A DNA stretch of 64,000 bases from positions 62,001-126,000 of the IMG/VR virus record IMGVR_UViG_3300008108_000002; one strand, written 5' to 3'. The stretch comes from a virus. Every line of letters starts with the position of its first letter. Position 1 is the first letter of the stretch. Positions 4,454 through 19,189 of the stretch are shown here, one piece after another. The position numbers and the translations under genes were made by a program. Under the pieces are notes generated by a model that saw only the letters and a list, made by a program, of their open reading frames with translations, was not told the origin of the DNA and made no database searches.

Positions 4454-5965
4454 TTATTTTATGTATTCTAACCCAATTAGTTTGTCCAATTGTTGTTCAA
4501 ACTGTTCTTCCAAACTAAACAAGTCTTTCTGAACTGGGATCTTACCTTGTTTTTTAATTTTACTATTTACAATATCTAAGAAGGTGTTCATCAATTCAAC
4601 ATCCACATCATCGTATTGATACAAGTAAGGAAGGTATTTTTCAACCATATCACGTACTTGTTCTTTTGGTATAGTATCTTCTAACTCTGGGTAACGACTA
4701 TAGAAATGTCTAATGATAATTGGAACGTTTTCCATAGCCCATTCTAAGAAGTCTGCATCATCATATTGTCGTAAATCTTCGTTCATTTGTGTAGGGTCTT
4801 TAGGTTCTTTTTCGTCATCTTTTGCTTGCATACCAAAACTACGTTGTCTCTCAAAGTCAGTATCTAGTTTAGATATATCAGGTCCTGCTTTAGCAGGTTT
4901 AGCTATTCCAGTTTTTGTGGCAGCAGCTACATCAGATGGACTAGCATTAGGTTTTAATTTGTTAATTTCTTTAGATGATGCTTTAAACATATCATCTACT
5001 GAGGGTACACGTTTCTTCTTAGTACGTGTTGTTGATTTTCTTACTTCAGGTGAGAATCTAAATTCAAGTTCATTAGTCAATGCAATTGCTTCTTGTTTAG
5101 TTTTTTCAACTTCTAGTTTAGCTTGTCCTACTTCTAGTTTAGCTTGTTCTACCTCTTTTTTAGAGTTGTCAACTTCTTTTTTTGTAGTATTCATGTAGTC
5201 ACTGAAGCCATCAAGTTCTTCTTTATATTTGTTAACTATTTGTGAATATTTTTTAAGTTCATCACCGTGTGTTCTTGTTTGAGCTTCAATATCTCCGCTC
5301 TTTTTAGTAATGTATTTTCTAAAACGTAATTCTTTAGCATCCAGTTTAGTCTGTGTATCATCTAGTCTAGCCATTACTGTGTTAAACATCTGGTCATCAA
5401 CCTGTTGTTTCTGTGACAATACAGCCAGTGCCAATTGAACTTTCTGCACTTCTTCATCACCTGCACCTTGTTTGATTTGGTTAACCTTATCAACAAGCTC
5501 TTTATATTTCTTTTCATCCATACCAGGTAATGTTTTTAATTTCTCTACATCAGCTAACATAGCTTCTACTTTATCAGCACTTGCTTTTGTAGTAGCCTGT
5601 TGTATTTCACCTGCAGGACGTAATTTGGCACTTAAATCTTTTAATCGTTGAACTTGTTGTTCAGTATCTTGTGCTACACGCTCATGGTCAGTTAGTTCTT
5701 GACCCAAATCTTGTAAGCTTCTACGTAACTTTTCATTTTCACGTTTCTGTGCATTGATAAGTTTGTTCTGTTCATAATCCATTTGTTCAGAGCTAGCTAA
5801 TTTATCAGCTACATACATTTGTAATGCTTGCTCTGGACTACGATCGGAATACTTTCTGGATGCCTGATATTGAATATCCTGATCTCTTGTTAGTGGACGA
5901 TCTTGTACTGCTTCATTAGCAATAATACTATCTGCCCAAGACTCTAATAGTTGAAGTTCTTTCAT
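4454..5965 (-). CDS. Long coiled-coil protein, unknown function
   Basis: 503 residues. Residues 60-300 are almost unbroken heptad-type helix, including near repeats KKEVEQAKLEVGQAKLEVEK. Residues 300-400 are a basic, low-complexity linker (RKSTTRTKKKRVPS). Residues 400-503 are a separate acidic helical domain (DADFLEWAMENVPIIIRHFYSRYPELED). The N-terminus MKELQLLESWADSII resembles the EELEEWADSVI motif in the next gene upstream. It starts 2 bases after that gene's stop with an AGGA site. A scaffold, prohead core or packaged head protein would fit the shape and position beside the terminase, but nothing proves it. Confidence 0.8.
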   Translation of the reverse strand: MKELQLLESWADSIIANEAVQDRPLTRDQDIQYQASRKYSDRSPEQALQMYVADKLASSEQMDYEQNKLINAQKRENEKLRRSLQDLGQELTDHERVAQDTEQQVQRLKDLSAKLRPAGEIQQATTKASADKVEAMLADVEKLKTLPGMDEKKYKELVDKVNQIKQGAGDEEVQKVQLALAVLSQKQQVDDQMFNTVMARLDDTQTKLDAKELRFRKYITKKSGDIEAQTRTHGDELKKYSQIVNKYKEELDGFSDYMNTTKKEVDNSKKEVEQAKLEVGQAKLEVEKTKQEAIALTNELEFRFSPEVRKSTTRTKKKRVPSVDDMFKASSKEINKLKPNASPSDVAAATKTGIAKPAKAGPDISKLDTDFERQRSFGMQAKDDEKEPKDPTQMNEDLRQYDDADFLEWAMENVPIIIRHFYSRYPELEDTIPKEQVRDMVEKYLPYLYQYDDVDVELMNTFLDIVNSKIKKQGKIPVQKDLFSLEEQFEQQLDKLIGLEYIK

Positions 5966-7366: not shown

Positions 7367-8914
7367 TTATCCCATTATGGCATAGAAAGGTAAGGGCATA
7401 ATTACTTCATCATGGTCACGAATATAGTTATCTAAATCATAGTTATATTCGCTTAAGTTCTGTAACATACGCACAACTAACAATGAAGACGTTACCAAAT
7501 CGTCTGATTCACCTATTTTTGCGGCATAACTACCACCTGAGGCTACAAAACTTTTAAGTTCTGTTACCAAACTACGACTGTTAATAGTCAACTTATTACT
7601 CTCAACTAATGTTTTAAACTTAGAACAGGCTGCTAGTTTACTCTTATTAGTTGTATTGAACCCTCGTTTCTTTTTGCCCGGCTCGCTTAAGAAAGATCCA
7701 GGTATGTTAGCTAGACCATATTCGTTCAATGATACTAGGGCGGCCTCGCCTACTCCGTTGACTTCTACACTATAGTATAAATTGTCTGGTTGAGTAGTAC
7801 ATTCAACAATGTATTTGTTAATCTGTGCTATCAGTTTAATTTGTGACGGTATATCTGTTCTATTATGTTTCCATTCACCGATTTGTGTCGTAGTATTTGC
7901 TTCATAAATCTGTATTGCGGCATTGTCACCACCTGTACCGACAGCAGGATCTAGTGCAACTATATAGATATTCCCCTTTTCAGGTTTCTTATACCAACGT
8001 ATCTGTCCCTGACGGAATACAGGTTCGATACCATCTAAATCAATTAACCTAGTAGGGGCAATTAATGTCTCATCTGCAATAATGAACTCGCAACCAATCT
8101 CTCGTCTAAATCTGTCTTCACCTAACTGAGCCTTCATCTGGTCAGCCCATTCTTGATTACGATCAGGATGCTCTTGCCAGAATGCTCTGTATGATTTAAA
8201 ACCGTTAACACCGAGCTCGGTGGTATCACCAAACTCATCTTCTGTTTTATTAGCACCCTTCCAAATCAAAGCAAATTGATCCTCATCACTATTAGGAGTA
8301 CTAGTGATAATCGCTTTACCACCTGTTGCTAATGTAGGAGTAATAGATGTCCAGAATTCTGTAGCAATTGTAGGTCGAACAAACGCAAACTCATCCAAGT
8401 ATAATAGTGTAATAGACATACCGCGACCTGTATTTTCTGTAGTTGTAGCACTAACAATACGTGATCCGTTCTCAAAGTCTAGTGAGCCTTTGTTGTATGT
8501 TGTTACACCTGCTTTAATGTGATCGGGACAGTTCTCATACGCATAACGAATACGTTGCATAATCTCTTGTGCACCTGTGTATTTGTGTGCCGCAATAAGA
8601 ATAGTACTATCCGGTACAAACATAGCATACCAAAGTAGATACCCTGCGGCTGATGTTGACTTACCTGTTTGTCGTGGCATCAAGCTAATTGAATAGCGAT
8701 AGGTATGATATGTATGTATTAACCGTTTTTGATAATCCCAGGGGTGATACAGCATAGAACCCTTTGTAGGATGTTGTATGTAAAAAAAGTTATCCATAAA
8801 GTATAGATAACCCATTTCAGGATCACAACATTTAACAAAATCTTCTAGCTCTTTATCAGAATTAAACTTTGTCTTTGTATAAGGTGTTTTGATTAAGGTA
8901 GGGGTTCCGCTCAT
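7367..8914 (-). CDS. 17: Terminase large subunit, gp17-like
   Basis: Packaging motor and headful nuclease. Residues 79-87 (MPRQTGKST) are the Walker A and 169-175 (TLLYLDE) the Walker B with catalytic Glu. ITSTPNSDEDQF near 203-214 fits the coupling motif. The nuclease domain starts with IYIVALDPAVGTGGD (317-330), holding the first metal-binding Asp. The 515 residues lack part of the N-terminal extension of T4 gp17 (610). The gene starts at an ATG only six bases after a perfect TATAAATA, with no ribosome site visible. No small terminase gene is recognised nearby; the small proteins upstream are candidates only by position. Confidence 0.95.
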   Translation of the reverse strand: MSGTPTLIKTPYTKTKFNSDKELEDFVKCCDPEMGYLYFMDNFFYIQHPTKGSMLYHPWDYQKRLIHTYHTYRYSISLMPRQTGKSTSAAGYLLWYAMFVPDSTILIAAHKYTGAQEIMQRIRYAYENCPDHIKAGVTTYNKGSLDFENGSRIVSATTTENTGRGMSITLLYLDEFAFVRPTIATEFWTSITPTLATGGKAIITSTPNSDEDQFALIWKGANKTEDEFGDTTELGVNGFKSYRAFWQEHPDRNQEWADQMKAQLGEDRFRREIGCEFIIADETLIAPTRLIDLDGIEPVFRQGQIRWYKKPEKGNIYIVALDPAVGTGGDNAAIQIYEANTTTQIGEWKHNRTDIPSQIKLIAQINKYIVECTTQPDNLYYSVEVNGVGEAALVSLNEYGLANIPGSFLSEPGKKKRGFNTTNKSKLAACSKFKTLVESNKLTINSRSLVTELKSFVASGGSYAAKIGESDDLVTSSLLVVRMLQNLSEYNYDLDNYIRDHDEVIMPLPFYAIMG

Positions 8915-8919
8915 ATTGC

Positions 8920-8928
8920 GTATTTATA
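8920..8928 (-). promoter_or_regulatory. Consensus T4-type late promoter for terL
   Basis: Minus-strand TATAAATAC, a perfect T4 late consensus, followed by GCAAT and then the terL ATG. There is no room for a ribosome site between the expected start of transcription and the ATG. Confidence 0.65.
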
Positions 8929-8954
8929 AAATTTTGGTTACGATATAGAATTTA

Positions 8955-9383
8955 CTATGGAGTGCTATTCCACGGACGACCTTCAATCAATCCAGTAGGA
9001 TGAGAATTATCTACAACACTGTTACCACTATATTTGGTAGGCAGTTCATCTATATTATAGTATGGTCTAGTATTTGAAAGGTCTAGTCTTTCTAATTGTG
9101 CCAAACTAAGTTTTGCAACTTGTCTATCTTGTAGTGTAGATAATCGTGAAATTTTATTATGAGTTCTTAATCTTGAACCTTCTACTATACCGTAAGAACT
9201 GATTGTTTGTGCGGTATCTAATACTTCATTATTGAATACTAAATCAAACCAACCTATTAAGCAACCTGTAGTAGCATCAATAGAATTTTTAAGTTCACCG
9301 ATAGTTCCTGCATTATCTACTGCATAACTATCATATTGTGCGGCATTGAGCAAACTCTGTACCGTTATGTTTATAGTGGCCAT
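8955..9383 (-). CDS. Small protein with ubiquitin-like N-terminal domain
   Basis: 142 residues. Residues 1-76 read like a ubiquitin fold: a beta strand (INITVQSL), a helix (TIGELKNSIDATTG), LVFNNEVLDTAQTISSYGIVEGSRLRT, which parallels the ubiquitin pattern of LIF-G-L-----TL-DY-I---S-L. There is no C-terminal Gly-Gly; instead residues 77-142 form a basic then Pro/Asn-rich extension ending PWNSTP. It lies just upstream of terL, after a 92-residue unknown, with an AGGAA ribosome site. A role as a protein-binding adaptor or small head or packaging protein is possible. The fold call is by eye. Confidence 0.7.
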   Translation of the reverse strand: MATINITVQSLLNAAQYDSYAVDNAGTIGELKNSIDATTGCLIGWFDLVFNNEVLDTAQTISSYGIVEGSRLRTHNKISRLSTLQDRQVAKLSLAQLERLDLSNTRPYYNIDELPTKYSGNSVVDNSHPTGLIEGRPWNSTP

Positions 9384-10425: not shown

Positions 10426-10794
10426 TTATTTTTTAAAGCCTTTAAACCCAATTACTGGGCTTGTTTTGTATGTACTGTCTAGTTCTTTACTTCTTAGATC
10501 AGCCTTATTTAAATCTTTATAAGTTATACCGGCAGCTTTGTATGCTAATTTTAGCATATCTTGTTCTTCTTTGGTATAAGGATGTGCTGTATTATTTTTA
10601 CCAAACCAGCTTTCAGAGTTCATATCAATAGGATTGATGCCATCACTACAGGCAACTGCCATCATTACACGATTCAAATCATATGTTCTATCAAATTGAT
10701 TATCGGCAAATATGTTTAGTCCACGTGAAGACTCTTGTTGACGTTTAGATATTTTACCCTTACTATTTTCGAATATAAATTCGGAAGCCCTCAT
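10426..10794 (-). CDS. Small protein with MRAxEF start and GFKGFKK end
   Basis: 122 residues. It begins MRASEFIFE and ends SPVIGFKGFKK; the neighbouring gene has the same two end motifs around a different core. The middle holds YDLNRVMMAVACSDG, ESWFGKNNTAHPYTKEE and a helix MLKLAYKAAGI. The start overlaps the neighbour's stop as ATGA. I have the impression that such proteins recur in environmental T4-like phages, but no function is known to me. Shared ends with different middles suggest a common targeting or processing signal. Confidence 0.75.
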   Translation of the reverse strand: MRASEFIFENSKGKISKRQQESSRGLNIFADNQFDRTYDLNRVMMAVACSDGINPIDMNSESWFGKNNTAHPYTKEEQDMLKLAYKAAGITYKDLNKADLRSKELDSTYKTSPVIGFKGFKK

Positions 10795-11174
10795 TTTTTA
10801 AACCCTTTAAACCCCTGTACAGGGCTTTTTGTAGACACATCATCAGCTTCTTCGCTGTGTATGGTACTTAATCTTTTCTTACCTTTGATGCCCATGATTT
10901 TTAATGCATCGGTCAACCATTCATCAATAGAAGGGTCAAAACTTACAACAATTTGATTTTGTCCCCAAGCACTTTCTTTGCTAAAATTAGGTACACCGTC
11001 TTCCGCACGTTTCTTAGAACCTTTAGCGCCTGCAATTGCTACACCAAATCTATATTGAATATATGGATCTTGACCTTTTAACTCAGGAATGGCATATGTG
11101 GAGGGCAGTGCTCTAGCTACATCATCCTGTATAGAGCCAGTACGACCCTCGTTAATAAATTCTTTAGCTCTCAT
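10791..11174 (-). CDS. Paralogue with MRAxEF start and GFKGFKK end
   Basis: 127 residues, MRAKEFINEG at the start and KSPVQGFKGFKK at the end. Distant alignment with the next gene is possible: both have a GVAIAGAKG or MMAVACSDG strand, an ESxWG or ESWFG motif and a helix before a central Gly-Ile. It starts 1 base after the fibre-like gene's stop, so it is co-transcribed with it. Function unknown; a virion-associated role is suggested only by context. Confidence 0.75.
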   Translation of the reverse strand: MRAKEFINEGRTGSIQDDVARALPSTYAIPELKGQDPYIQYRFGVAIAGAKGSKKRAEDGVPNFSKESAWGQNQIVVSFDPSIDEWLTDALKIMGIKGKKRLSTIHSEEADDVSTKSPVQGFKGFKK

Positions 11175-12024: not shown

Positions 12025-12465
12025 ATGAAAAAACTTATATCTATACTACTATTATCCACTTTGACAACTACTGCGTTTGCTCAAAAACAAAAAGCAGGGG
12101 TGACATATGATGCATTGATTACTAGAGTTATCGATGGAGACACAATTGCATTTCAAGCACCGTTCTTGCCGGCGCCGTTAAAACCCGAACTAAGTATTCG
12201 TGTATTTGGTGTTGATACTCCTGAGAAGGGTCATAGAGCACAATGTCCAAGTGAAGCACAGCGAGGAGAGGCTGCTAGTGCATTCACAAAACAACAAATT
12301 GCTAATGCACAAAAGAAGCAAATTATACTAATAGACTGGGATAAGTACGGCGGACGTGTTTTGGGTGACGTTATTTTAGACGGCAAAAGTTTAAGAGGGA
12401 TGCTTATCCAGCAGGGTTTTGCACGTGAGTACTATGGTGAAGCTAAGACTTCTTGGTGTAACTAA
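12025..12465 (+). CDS. Secreted thermonuclease-like (SNase) nuclease
   Basis: Staphylococcal-nuclease family, calcium-dependent phosphodiesterase for DNA or RNA. Residues 1-19 are a signal peptide (KKLISILLLSTLTTTAFA, cleaved before Gln20), so it should reach the periplasm. The core shows VIDGDT (35-40), RVFGVDTPEKG (59-69) and YGGRVLGDV (108-116). The catalytic set Arg59, Asp64, Glu67 and Arg111 is complete, and QRGEAASAFT fits the family. It is the only plus-strand gene in a minus-strand block, converges on the spanin genes with its stop overlapping theirs, and looks like an accessory insertion. It might degrade incoming or released nucleic acid in the envelope. Confidence 0.92.
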   Translation: MKKLISILLLSTLTTTAFAQKQKAGVTYDALITRVIDGDTIAFQAPFLPAPLKPELSIRVFGVDTPEKGHRAQCPSEAQRGEAASAFTKQQIANAQKKQIILIDWDKYGGRVLGDVILDGKSLRGMLIQQGFAREYYGEAKTSWCN

Positions 12466-12719
12466 AATCCAAATATATTCTTAGGTAACTCAATTACAAT
12501 AGGTTGTCTATTTTGTTGTAATTGTTGTAATAATAAAGTCCCGTTCTGTCTAACGCTAGGATCGGGACTTTTTAACATCTCCGATATAGCTAACATACGA
12601 GTGGTTTCTGTAACAGTGATATCTCGGGATAGAGATTTCTGTGCTTCTACATACACAGAATAATCTTTACTAGCACATCCCGAAATCATTAAAGATACGA
12701 GTAGTATGATATATTTCAT
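12462..12719 (-). CDS. Small lipoprotein, possible second outer spanin
   Basis: 85 residues with a lipoprotein signal: MKYIILLVSLMISGC, lipobox ISGC with Cys15. The mature part is short and helical (VYVEAQKSLSRDITVTETTRMLAISEMLKSPDPS) and ends ELPKNIFGF. The start overlaps the stop of the next lipoprotein as ATGA. It belongs to a three-gene envelope cassette. It could be the outer-membrane spanin subunit or an accessory lipoprotein; the other lipoprotein is equally likely. Confidence 0.7.
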   Translation of the reverse strand: MKYIILLVSLMISGCASKDYSVYVEAQKSLSRDITVTETTRMLAISEMLKSPDPSVRQNGTLLLQQLQQNRQPIVIELPKNIFGF

Positions 12720-12982
12720 TTGACTTCGTTAAAGATTTTCTTTTGTGTTTCATACCACTCTTGCCAACCTTCTACTTTTGTAGAACATTCGTGGTATAAC
12801 GAATAGTTGTGTACGATAACTTTTAACATTTCTGTAATTGCTACTTTGTCACCCTCTATGAGTTTAAGTCTTTCGCACTTTTCTTTAAGAACTTGAGGTG
12901 CTTCAGGAAACTTTCTAGCAACAGGTACAGTGGTACTGCATCCTGCAAGAACAATTGCTAATGATATAATCAATGCTTTCAT
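12716..12982 (-). CDS. Lipoprotein, probable outer-membrane spanin (Rz1-like)
   Basis: 88 residues. Signal and lipobox VLAGC with Cys15, then TTVPVARKFPEAPQVLKEKC and a C-terminal helix rich in Trp and Tyr (VEGWQEWYETQKKIFNEVK). It begins within the last codons of the two-helix membrane protein upstream (ATGA overlap), the usual order of i-spanin then o-spanin. Three Cys remain in the mature protein (15, 36, 61), which could form disulphides. Spanins fuse the inner and outer membranes at the end of lysis. Confidence 0.65.
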   Translation of the reverse strand: MKALIISLAIVLAGCSTTVPVARKFPEAPQVLKEKCERLKLIEGDKVAITEMLKVIVHNYSLYHECSTKVEGWQEWYETQKKIFNEVK

Positions 12983-13449
12983 TTCTTGTCCTTTGGTTCA
13001 GCGGCTTTGTTTAGTATTGCGGCGTCATTGTGTATATCAATGATTGCTTTAGGTACAGGACAATTCTCAACATACTTGATAACTTCTTCAGTTTTTACAA
13101 CTTCTTTATCAATGTACTTGATTATGTCTTTACCTTTTTCTCTAATAACTTTAGTCTGCGTAACAATCTTTTCTTGTACTTCCACATTCACAGTTTTAGC
13201 TTTTTCTTCAGCTACGGCTACTTTGGCTTCCATCTCTTTGACTCTAGCTTCCCATTCTTTATAGTCAGCTAATCCGCCCTCTAGATATAATCCCAAAGAA
13301 AGTACAAGTAAACTAATGACTTGAATTGGTATTTTATATTGTTTGATTGCAGGAATCATGCCCAAAGCAAATCCAGCAACCGTGCCTATAATTCCCACTG
13401 TGAGAATTAGATGAAAAGCCCATTCGGGTAAAATAGATATTATCCACAT
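12979..13449 (-). CDS. Inner-membrane coiled-coil protein, probable i-spanin (Rz-like)
   Basis: 156 residues. Two hydrophobic segments (about 10-32 and 40-58) are followed by a long charged coiled coil in the periplasm (YKEWEARVKEMEAKVAVAEEKAK ... VVKTEEVIKYVENC) and a tail with VPKAIIDIHNDAA. Typical i-spanins have one membrane helix; here there are two, so the topology or role could differ (a holin-like part is possible). The late element TAATAAATAAC lies directly before the ATG. No endolysin is seen nearby. Confidence 0.65.
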   Translation of the reverse strand: MWIISILPEWAFHLILTVGIIGTVAGFALGMIPAIKQYKIPIQVISLLVLSLGLYLEGGLADYKEWEARVKEMEAKVAVAEEKAKTVNVEVQEKIVTQTKVIREKGKDIIKYIDKEVVKTEEVIKYVENCPVPKAIIDIHNDAAILNKAAEPKDKK

Positions 13450-17905: not shown

Positions 17906-19189
17906 TTACTTCTTGTGATCGTTGTAGATTGCCCATGTACCGAATGGGGGGTTAGGATCAGGGTCACCATGAATAATCCATGTAGTGTCACAATAATCTT
18001 TATCTCCCCAGCTACCATAGGGATATCCATCAGTGAATACAACTAAACGTTTCGGACTAATTGCATTTTCTTTCAAGTAAGTAAAGATACAATCAAAGTC
18101 AGTACCACCACCGCCCATTGGTTCGTAGTTTTCAATACTTTCCATATTCTCATGGTCAAAGTCTTTAGGATTGTACGTGTCTGTATCAAAACAGAATACA
18201 TGGACCTTGTAACCATCAAACGAATCCATCATGCCACCAATCTCACCTAAGAATTGTTGTGCTTGTGTGTTACTGATAGAACCTGACATGTCAATAGCAA
18301 TAGTAACATCAATCTCTTCACCGGGCGTCATGCCGGGCATAATAGCATCCATGTGCCAGCTACGACGGCTAGGACGAGTCCAAGAATAATCGTTACGAAT
18401 TGCACTAGTTAAATTGACTTGCAATAGTTCACGCCAGGGCATGATTGGGTTTGTAGCTTGTCTAACAAGACGTTCAACACCTTTAGGTAGTGTACCTGCT
18501 TCTGCACTTTGTGCGGCAGAAATAATTGCTTGTTTAACTTCTTGTCTAATACGTTCACGTTCTTCAGGACTCATTGAAGGACGTTTGCCTTTAGCTTTAC
18601 CTTCTTGATCTCCGTCACCGTCGCTTTCACCGTCATCACCATCCATGTGATCGTCAATCATTTGGTCAATCAATGAATTAATGTCAATCTTCTGAACATT
18701 CTTCATCAAGTCATCATAGATTTCTTCTGCAGGCTTACCGTCATACTTCTGCTCATACAAGCAAGGTACTGTAGTAATGAATTGACCCACTTTGTGCCGT
18801 TTCAAATCTGCATTGACTGCATAGTCATCAGCAATGTTCCAGATCTGTGGATCACGTGATCCTCTACGATCCATATGGTCATACACAACGTGTAGCACTT
18901 CATGTCCAAACAAAAATTCTACCTCTTTAGTTTTCAACATCATAATGAAACGACTGTTATAGTAGAATGTGCTGCCATCAGTTGCCGCTGTACTACACCA
19001 CAAATCGGCGTTAACTAACTTCATGCGAGTAGCAAGATTGCCAAAGAATGAATGACGTAGTAGCAAACCCACTCGGGCTGTTACAAGACGTTCACGTGCT
19101 TGTGCATCAATTTTCGTATCCAATGGACCGATAAGATTATCAAATTTTGAGCTACGTTTTTTCTTTGTAGGGCTGATTACGTCTGACAT
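17906..19189 (-). CDS. VWA-like protein with metallopeptidase-type N-terminus
   Basis: 427 residues. The N-terminal half has HEVLH (96-100) within EFLFGHEVLHVVYDHMDRR and a downstream IADDYAVNADL, the zinc-peptidase-like domain found in DUF2201-type proteins. An acidic linker (about 180-195, DDHMDGDDGESDGDGDQEG) follows. The C-terminal half is a VWA-like domain with metal site DMSGS (300-304) and GGGGTDFD (about 364-371). These proteins are usually paired with MoxR ATPases, as here. They are thought to act as chaperone-like or protein-remodelling machines. The gene has its own perfect sigma-70 promoter, implying high early expression. Confidence 0.9.
   Translation of the reverse strand: MSDVISPTKKKRSSKFDNLIGPLDTKIDAQARERLVTARVGLLLRHSFFGNLATRMKLVNADLWCSTAATDGSTFYYNSRFIMMLKTKEVEFLFGHEVLHVVYDHMDRRGSRDPQIWNIADDYAVNADLKRHKVGQFITTVPCLYEQKYDGKPAEEIYDDLMKNVQKIDINSLIDQMIDDHMDGDDGESDGDGDQEGKAKGKRPSMSPEERERIRQEVKQAIISAAQSAEAGTLPKGVERLVRQATNPIMPWRELLQVNLTSAIRNDYSWTRPSRRSWHMDAIMPGMTPGEEIDVTIAIDMSGSISNTQAQQFLGEIGGMMDSFDGYKVHVFCFDTDTYNPKDFDHENMESIENYEPMGGGGTDFDCIFTYLKENAISPKRLVVFTDGYPYGSWGDKDYCDTTWIIHGDPDPNPPFGTWAIYNDHKK

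Follow-up and report, generated by a model that had tools for sequence, protein, structure and literature searches.

Modular phage adhesins and fibres, such as those encoded at the T-even distal tail fibre locus, pair a constant module with interchangeable tips through recombination between conserved motifs. The protein family described here resembles them in its constant module, its interchangeable binding domains, and its recombination between conserved motifs; it differs in that an N-terminal ubiquitin-like (UbL) head is among the parts exchanged, and in that the constant module, a stretch of 60 aa ending in GRPW, is undescribed in the libraries and papers searched. We read it as a probable family of modular adhesin or decoration proteins of phages, in which the UbL head is unusual.

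Ubiquitin-like folds themselves have a precedent in phages. Tail assembly protein I (TAPI) of lambda and T1, a ThiS/MoaD-related protein with a conserved terminal Gly, is encoded beside JAB/NlpC peptidase genes and does not form part of the mature tail (PMC1779556). Like TAPI, the protein studied here combines an N-terminal UbL domain with a C-terminal part and is encoded near tail and fibre genes; unlike TAPI, it has neither that Gly nor a JAB gene in its record, and its relatives carry lectin-type fusions. With the PF00240 family (ubiquitin, ISG15, and the Dsk2/Rad23 UBL domains) it shares the fold, the strand order, and the core pattern, whereas its beta1-beta2 loop is longer, its Gly-Gly end is missing, a GRPW module is appended, and the family has been met only in uncultivated phages in the collections searched. 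The remark in the initial annotation that phage ubiquitin-like proteins are few thus needs qualifying, since TAPI was already known (PMC1779556) and IMG/VR contains more than 60 distinct members of the present family alone. In the literature on phage ubiquitin-like proteins and GLEYA tail-fibre proteins, we found no published account of the UbL/GRPW combination, the TAPI paper alone being relevant.

The Gene and Its Parts

The window (i.e., the whole 64,000-nt stretch of viral DNA analysed) belongs to a full virus record of 180,035 bp, and its large terminase gene (terL) finds its best phage matches in the PA5oct/Paride group of large myovirus-type phages, at 49% identity. The open reading frame (ORF) next to terL begins with ATG and occupies exactly the interval first assigned to it, and its position adjoining the terminase gene was confirmed; both genes lie on the minus strand, which had previously been left unstated (Table 1). 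Beyond the UbL part, the protein has a second conserved module. The dN/dS of the gene relative to L005 (homologous IMG/VR loci are designated here by L numbers) is 0.14, and it thus appears to be under purifying selection. No paralogs of the gene were found in the 180-kb record.

Table 1. Positions in the window of the UbL-GRPW gene, its parts, and its neighbour.
Feature	Position	Strand	Basis
UbL-GRPW protein, short form, 142 aa	8955..9383	minus	ORF and translation, homologous IMG/VR loci, dN/dS
Ubiquitin-like domain, residues 1-76	9156..9383	minus	PF00240, AlphaFold2, Foldseek
QSLLNAAQYD, residues 9-18, near-invariant beta1-beta2 loop	9330..9359	minus	Lowest entropy in family
GRPW module, residues 79-138	8970..9149	minus	Alignment A4, 283 confirmed loci, architecture tally
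NSTP (residues 139-142) and stop; point where long relatives run on into lectin-type domains	8955..8969	minus	
40-nt gap between ORF and terL; c6 inserted at this point in most relatives	8915..8954		
Terminase large subunit, neighbour, probably with no functional part	7367..8914	minus	phrog_36964 1.2e-111, PF03237 4.4e-17

A Ubiquitin Fold at the N-Terminus

The Pfam ubiquitin model (PF00240) matches residues 20-72 of the window protein with 25.4 bits (E 1.2e-5), exactly at its curated cut-off (25.4), and L005 with 26.0 bits; 21 of the 23 members of alignment A2 are matched at E <= 1 (best 5.9e-8), and these members fit YukD and other models of beta-grasp proteins less well. When the family profile was compared with the PDB, polyubiquitin chains were matched at 6e-38, to which nine repeats contribute, and single ubiquitins at ~1e-3. 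In a gapless alignment, the invariant residues T27, K32, T60, and L72 coincide with T22, K27, T55, and L67 of ubiquitin. The AlphaFold2 model of the 142-aa protein (pLDDT 88.7, pTM 0.78; mostly 89-96 over residues 1-76) places strands at 3-9 and 17-23, a helix at 28-39, and strands at 46-50 and 71-76, which is the order seen in ubiquitin, and its top 50 Foldseek matches in the PDB are all ubiquitin, ISG15, or UBL structures (TM 0.76-0.91, normalised to single-domain targets). A model of a long form was again confident over the UbL part and poor over the remainder (pLDDT 57), including the GRPW module, the end of which also has lower confidence in the window protein (pLDDT 65-80). Together, these lines of evidence confirm the initial observation of a ubiquitin pattern in residues 1-76: the match is above chance, and the structure prediction proposed as a check returned a ubiquitin fold and no other. 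By both sequence match and model, then, this part of the protein is a ubiquitin-like fold.

Whether such a fold acts as a protein tag is a separate matter. That ubiquitin itself, and not ThiS/MoaD, is the closest fold would suit a genuine modifier of the ubiquitin type, one that is processed and then conjugated to phage or host proteins. As previously noted, however, the protein has no Gly-Gly end, and indeed no Gly-Gly anywhere; the UbL domain ends instead in LRTHNKISRL and continues directly into the GRPW module. Neither ThiF/E1 (PF00899) nor Prok-JAB (PF14464) was matched in the 180-kb record, which is possibly incomplete, while positive controls were matched. In addition, Ile44 of ubiquitin is replaced by V49 (S or A in some members) and Val70 by H75, so the usual ubiquitin binding patch is not kept. 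Since the protein has no Gly-Gly and its record shows neither an E1-like nor a JAB gene, it is probably not a modifier; this reading is already largely refuted, and we consider it extremely improbable. The earlier preference for binding over conjugation is accordingly supported.

The GRPW Module and Its Architectures

In every member uncut by a contig end, the UbL domain is followed by the ~60-aa module, which consists of a helix (RQxAKLxLAxLxR) and then LPTxYxGN...GLxxGRPW. With the first relatives as seeds, successive scans recovered 33 and then 65 homologous IMG/VR loci; with only the GRPW module as seed, 283 loci were confirmed (the best 80 of the 283 being listed), and a second such scan gave 306. 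Among the 131 distinct ORFs from the matches listed, a tally that is shaped by the search seeds and by the best 80 loci per scan and gives no natural frequencies, 67 have both modules, 63 have GRPW without the UbL domain (two of these are truncated at the 5' end by the contig and may have lost a head), and one has a UbL domain cut by the contig end; no complete UbL domain occurs without GRPW. Many of the proteins without the UbL domain start with M-[AS]-x-N-G-I-S and enter the GRPW module directly. Our first idea, that the UbL domain serves as the virion dock, is weakened because roughly half of the proteins contain GRPW but no UbL domain.

With or without the UbL domain, the protein may end a few residues past GRPW or extend further. 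Among the matches listed, the 62 complete UbL proteins comprise 42 short and 20 long forms, and the complete proteins without UbL comprise 19 short and 39 long forms. The extensions are mostly sugar- or surface-binding folds: GLEYA/PA14 in L097, L098, L101, L130, L151, and L182 (GLEYA 1.1e-20, PA14 6.6e-12), laminin-G in L025, L099, L142, and L150 (Laminin_G_3 1.8e-23), ILEI in L094 and its homologs (2.3e-11), and Gly_rich_2 in L177 (1.7e-28), together with an unnamed ~90-aa domain in L005 and L007. The laminin-G extension matches cyanophage proteins annotated as virion structural. The window protein is a short form, with no receptor- or sugar-binding domain in its polypeptide.

Two further arrangements were observed. 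In L243 (4728-5171, plus strand), the GRPW module follows a different ~90-aa domain without a Pfam match, which aligns to the UbL domain only with an insertion and is perhaps a diverged beta-grasp head. In L252 (4296-5171, plus strand), a protein starting MAANGIST has the GRPW module at its C-terminus, after a homolog of the unnamed C-terminal domain of L005, and the modules therefore also swap order.

The family was sought in other collections as well. Using the window protein, a long relative, and two GRPW consensus sequences as tblastn queries, we found no UbL/GRPW homologs in 50,697 phage records, the Alteromonas matches at E ~0.05 covering the ILEI-like part only; a genome collection of 84,980 species likewise contained no relatives. 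No UbL protein was annotated or found beside terL in the PA5oct/Paride group, Phosso, 121Q, or Vibrio 2.275.O. Structural matches in BFVD come from uncultured Caudovirales phages and correspond to UniProt entries A0A6J7WM86, named after ILEI, and A0A6J5LJ96, A0A6J5KS75, and A0A6J5L3D0, named as GLEYA adhesins (46-54% identity, with two of the four entries spanning the whole window protein). These automatic names derive from the C-terminal domain and leave the UbL head unmentioned.

Gene Neighbourhood

For 45 of the 62 complete UbL proteins among the matches listed, the next gene is c6, which mostly overlaps the UbL gene or starts within ~20 nt of it. This gene encodes a fibre-like protein of 319-725 aa, sits between the UbL gene and terL in most relatives, and, in the examples tested, belongs to phrog_1645, a virion structural protein (L009 1e-113, L005 1.5e-90). 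A constant N-terminus is followed in c6 by GNVxxxVSGNV-type repeats in variable number, which we read from their sequence as a putative beta-helical stalk. In cyanophages and HMO-2011, the small genes that precede the c6 homolog were considered as counterparts of the UbL gene and rejected, their sequences being unrelated.

Both c6 and a small gene, c3, are missing from the window and from four contigs identical to it, and the UbL-GRPW gene therefore meets terL directly; a c6 homolog was not found anywhere in the 180-kb record. L008 shows a similar loss, although its contig is short and the loss possibly an assembly artefact. The gene's place next to the terminase most likely reflects the missing gene. 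In L010, L034, and L036-L038, the gene is flanked by two other fibre-like genes, and in other phage groups it is found at a distance from terL, either with fibre genes or following an endolysin region. Participation in DNA packaging alongside the terminase or portal, perhaps as a small terminase subunit, would account for a gene directly upstream of terL in the window and the four contigs, but c6 separates the two genes in relatives, the pairing with terL is inconstant, and no small-terminase family is matched; we regard such a role as very improbable. The link to terminase or portal entertained at the outset is not supported, and the gene is probably unrelated to the terminase.

The pairing with c6 also bears on a possible role as an intracellular assembly factor, that is, a TAPI-like chaperone or scaffold that serves the c6 fibre or the tail but remains outside the mature virion. 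The gene is small and translationally coupled to the fibre gene in most relatives, and protein I of lambda and T1 is itself ubiquitin-like and acts in tail assembly without being retained in the mature tail (PMC1779556). Lectin-type fusions, however, would make little sense in an assembly factor, the gene is retained without c6 in the window's phage, and no JAB partner was matched in the 180-kb record. Furthermore, the Lambda_tail_I family is absent among the window protein's Pfam matches at E <= 10, a threshold at which the HMMER filters drop most weak matches. We consider an assembly factor distinctly unlikely.

Cassette Exchange and Conservation

Otherwise near-identical genomes have exchanged the UbL domain as a cassette. 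When identity along the gene was compared in 60-nt steps, L005 and L007 were ~86-100% identical upstream, 53-78% identical over the UbL part, and 95-100% identical across GRPW and the C-terminal domain; L020 and L025 showed the same pattern, and in L006 and L023 the UbL stretch is more diverged than the downstream sequence. The reverse was seen between L005 and L006, which are 81-93% identical over the UbL part, ~60% identical over the GRPW module, and unrelated beyond it. Across 45 distinct proteins, pairwise identities of the UbL part and of the other part have a correlation of only 0.43. In the three pairs with a diverged UbL stretch, the apparent crossover regions are the conserved first ~45 nt and the sequence around LRTHNKIS.

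Conservation within the domain is uneven. The QSLLNAAQYD loop has the lowest entropy in the family (0.44 bits), LRTHNKIS has 0.60 bits, and between these near-invariant ends the middle of the domain is variable (1.2-1.8 bits in most segments). Conservation of the loop as a mere effect of the search seeds was considered and rejected, since the QSLLN..YD pattern is still present in members recovered by the GRPW-seeded scan. The near-invariant beta1-beta2 loop and the last strand would be the likely contact surface of the head; it is possible that the first ~15 codons and LRTHNKIS also serve as natural crossover sites, which would be a second cause of their conservation beside partner contact.

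The exchange pattern also fits a UbL domain that acts as a specificity domain instead of a dock. The domain would then be the receptor-binding part of a virion protein, swapped to alter its target, and the greater divergence of the UbL stretch than of the downstream sequence in the three pairs, the variable middle between near-invariant ends, and the predominance of lectin-free short forms among UbL architectures (42 of 62 among the matches listed) are all in keeping with this. On the other hand, the long forms already have a means of binding in their lectin-type domains at the opposite end, and dN/dS over the UbL domain is 0.15-0.3, which indicates purifying and not diversifying selection. 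We judge a receptor-specificity role to be rather unlikely.

Proposed Role

On balance, we think it probable that the protein is a virion appendage, in which the UbL domain is an optional protein-contact head on a modular adhesin/decoration family anchored by GRPW. An optional, exchangeable head joined to a conserved module that often bears sugar-binding domains probably belongs to the outer attachment gear. The GRPW module is the constant part and, because nearly all members have it, would attach the protein to the virion or to an adjacent fibre. The UbL domain would form the N-terminal head and make a non-covalent protein contact, either with a virion partner such as c6 or with a surface, the co-transcribed c6 fibre being the likely partner. 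The lectin-type domain found past GRPW in many relatives would in turn bind a cell-surface sugar. The window's phage has kept the head and the putative anchor, while the lectin and c6 are both absent, and the function could therefore have shifted in this phage.

A bolder version, which we hold to be unlikely, makes the UbL domain a recognition head displayed on the virion, a cassette that phages swap on a universal socket formed by GRPW, with ubiquitin-like and lectin folds acting as interchangeable binding tips in uncultured large phages.

A ubiquitin-family domain in a phage surface-type protein, apparently engaged in plain protein contact, would add a use of this fold outside signalling. 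The GRPW module resembles a general socket for UbL, GLEYA/PA14, laminin-G, and ILEI domains and occurs in several hundred phage contigs. If it is shown to be a virion anchor, its sequence would offer a simple way to recognise attachment proteins in uncultured phages; most such proteins are currently nameless or named after the swapped domain only.

Other Features of the Locus

Several neighbouring genes are of interest in their own right. A staphylococcal-nuclease-type gene (PF00565, 5.5e-12) with an apparent signal peptide lies on the strand opposite to its neighbours, at 12025-12465 (plus strand) in the window. In several relatives, its place and orientation are taken by a non-homologous DNA/RNA endonuclease (PF01223, 2.4e-37), a non-orthologous replacement between apparently secreted nucleases; the locus concerned in L005 is 4661-5476 (minus strand). 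Two tandem paralogs at 10426-10794 and 10791-11174 (minus strand) share the ending [TK]SPV[IQ]GFKGFKK; in most relatives there is a single copy. Three small ORFs at 12462-13449 (minus strand), with hydrophobic or lipoprotein-like starts and no Pfam match, look like a lysis (spanin/holin) set. Finally, the gene at 17906-19189 (minus strand) encodes a protein with a DUF2201 putative metallopeptidase and a VWA-like domain (5.7e-45).
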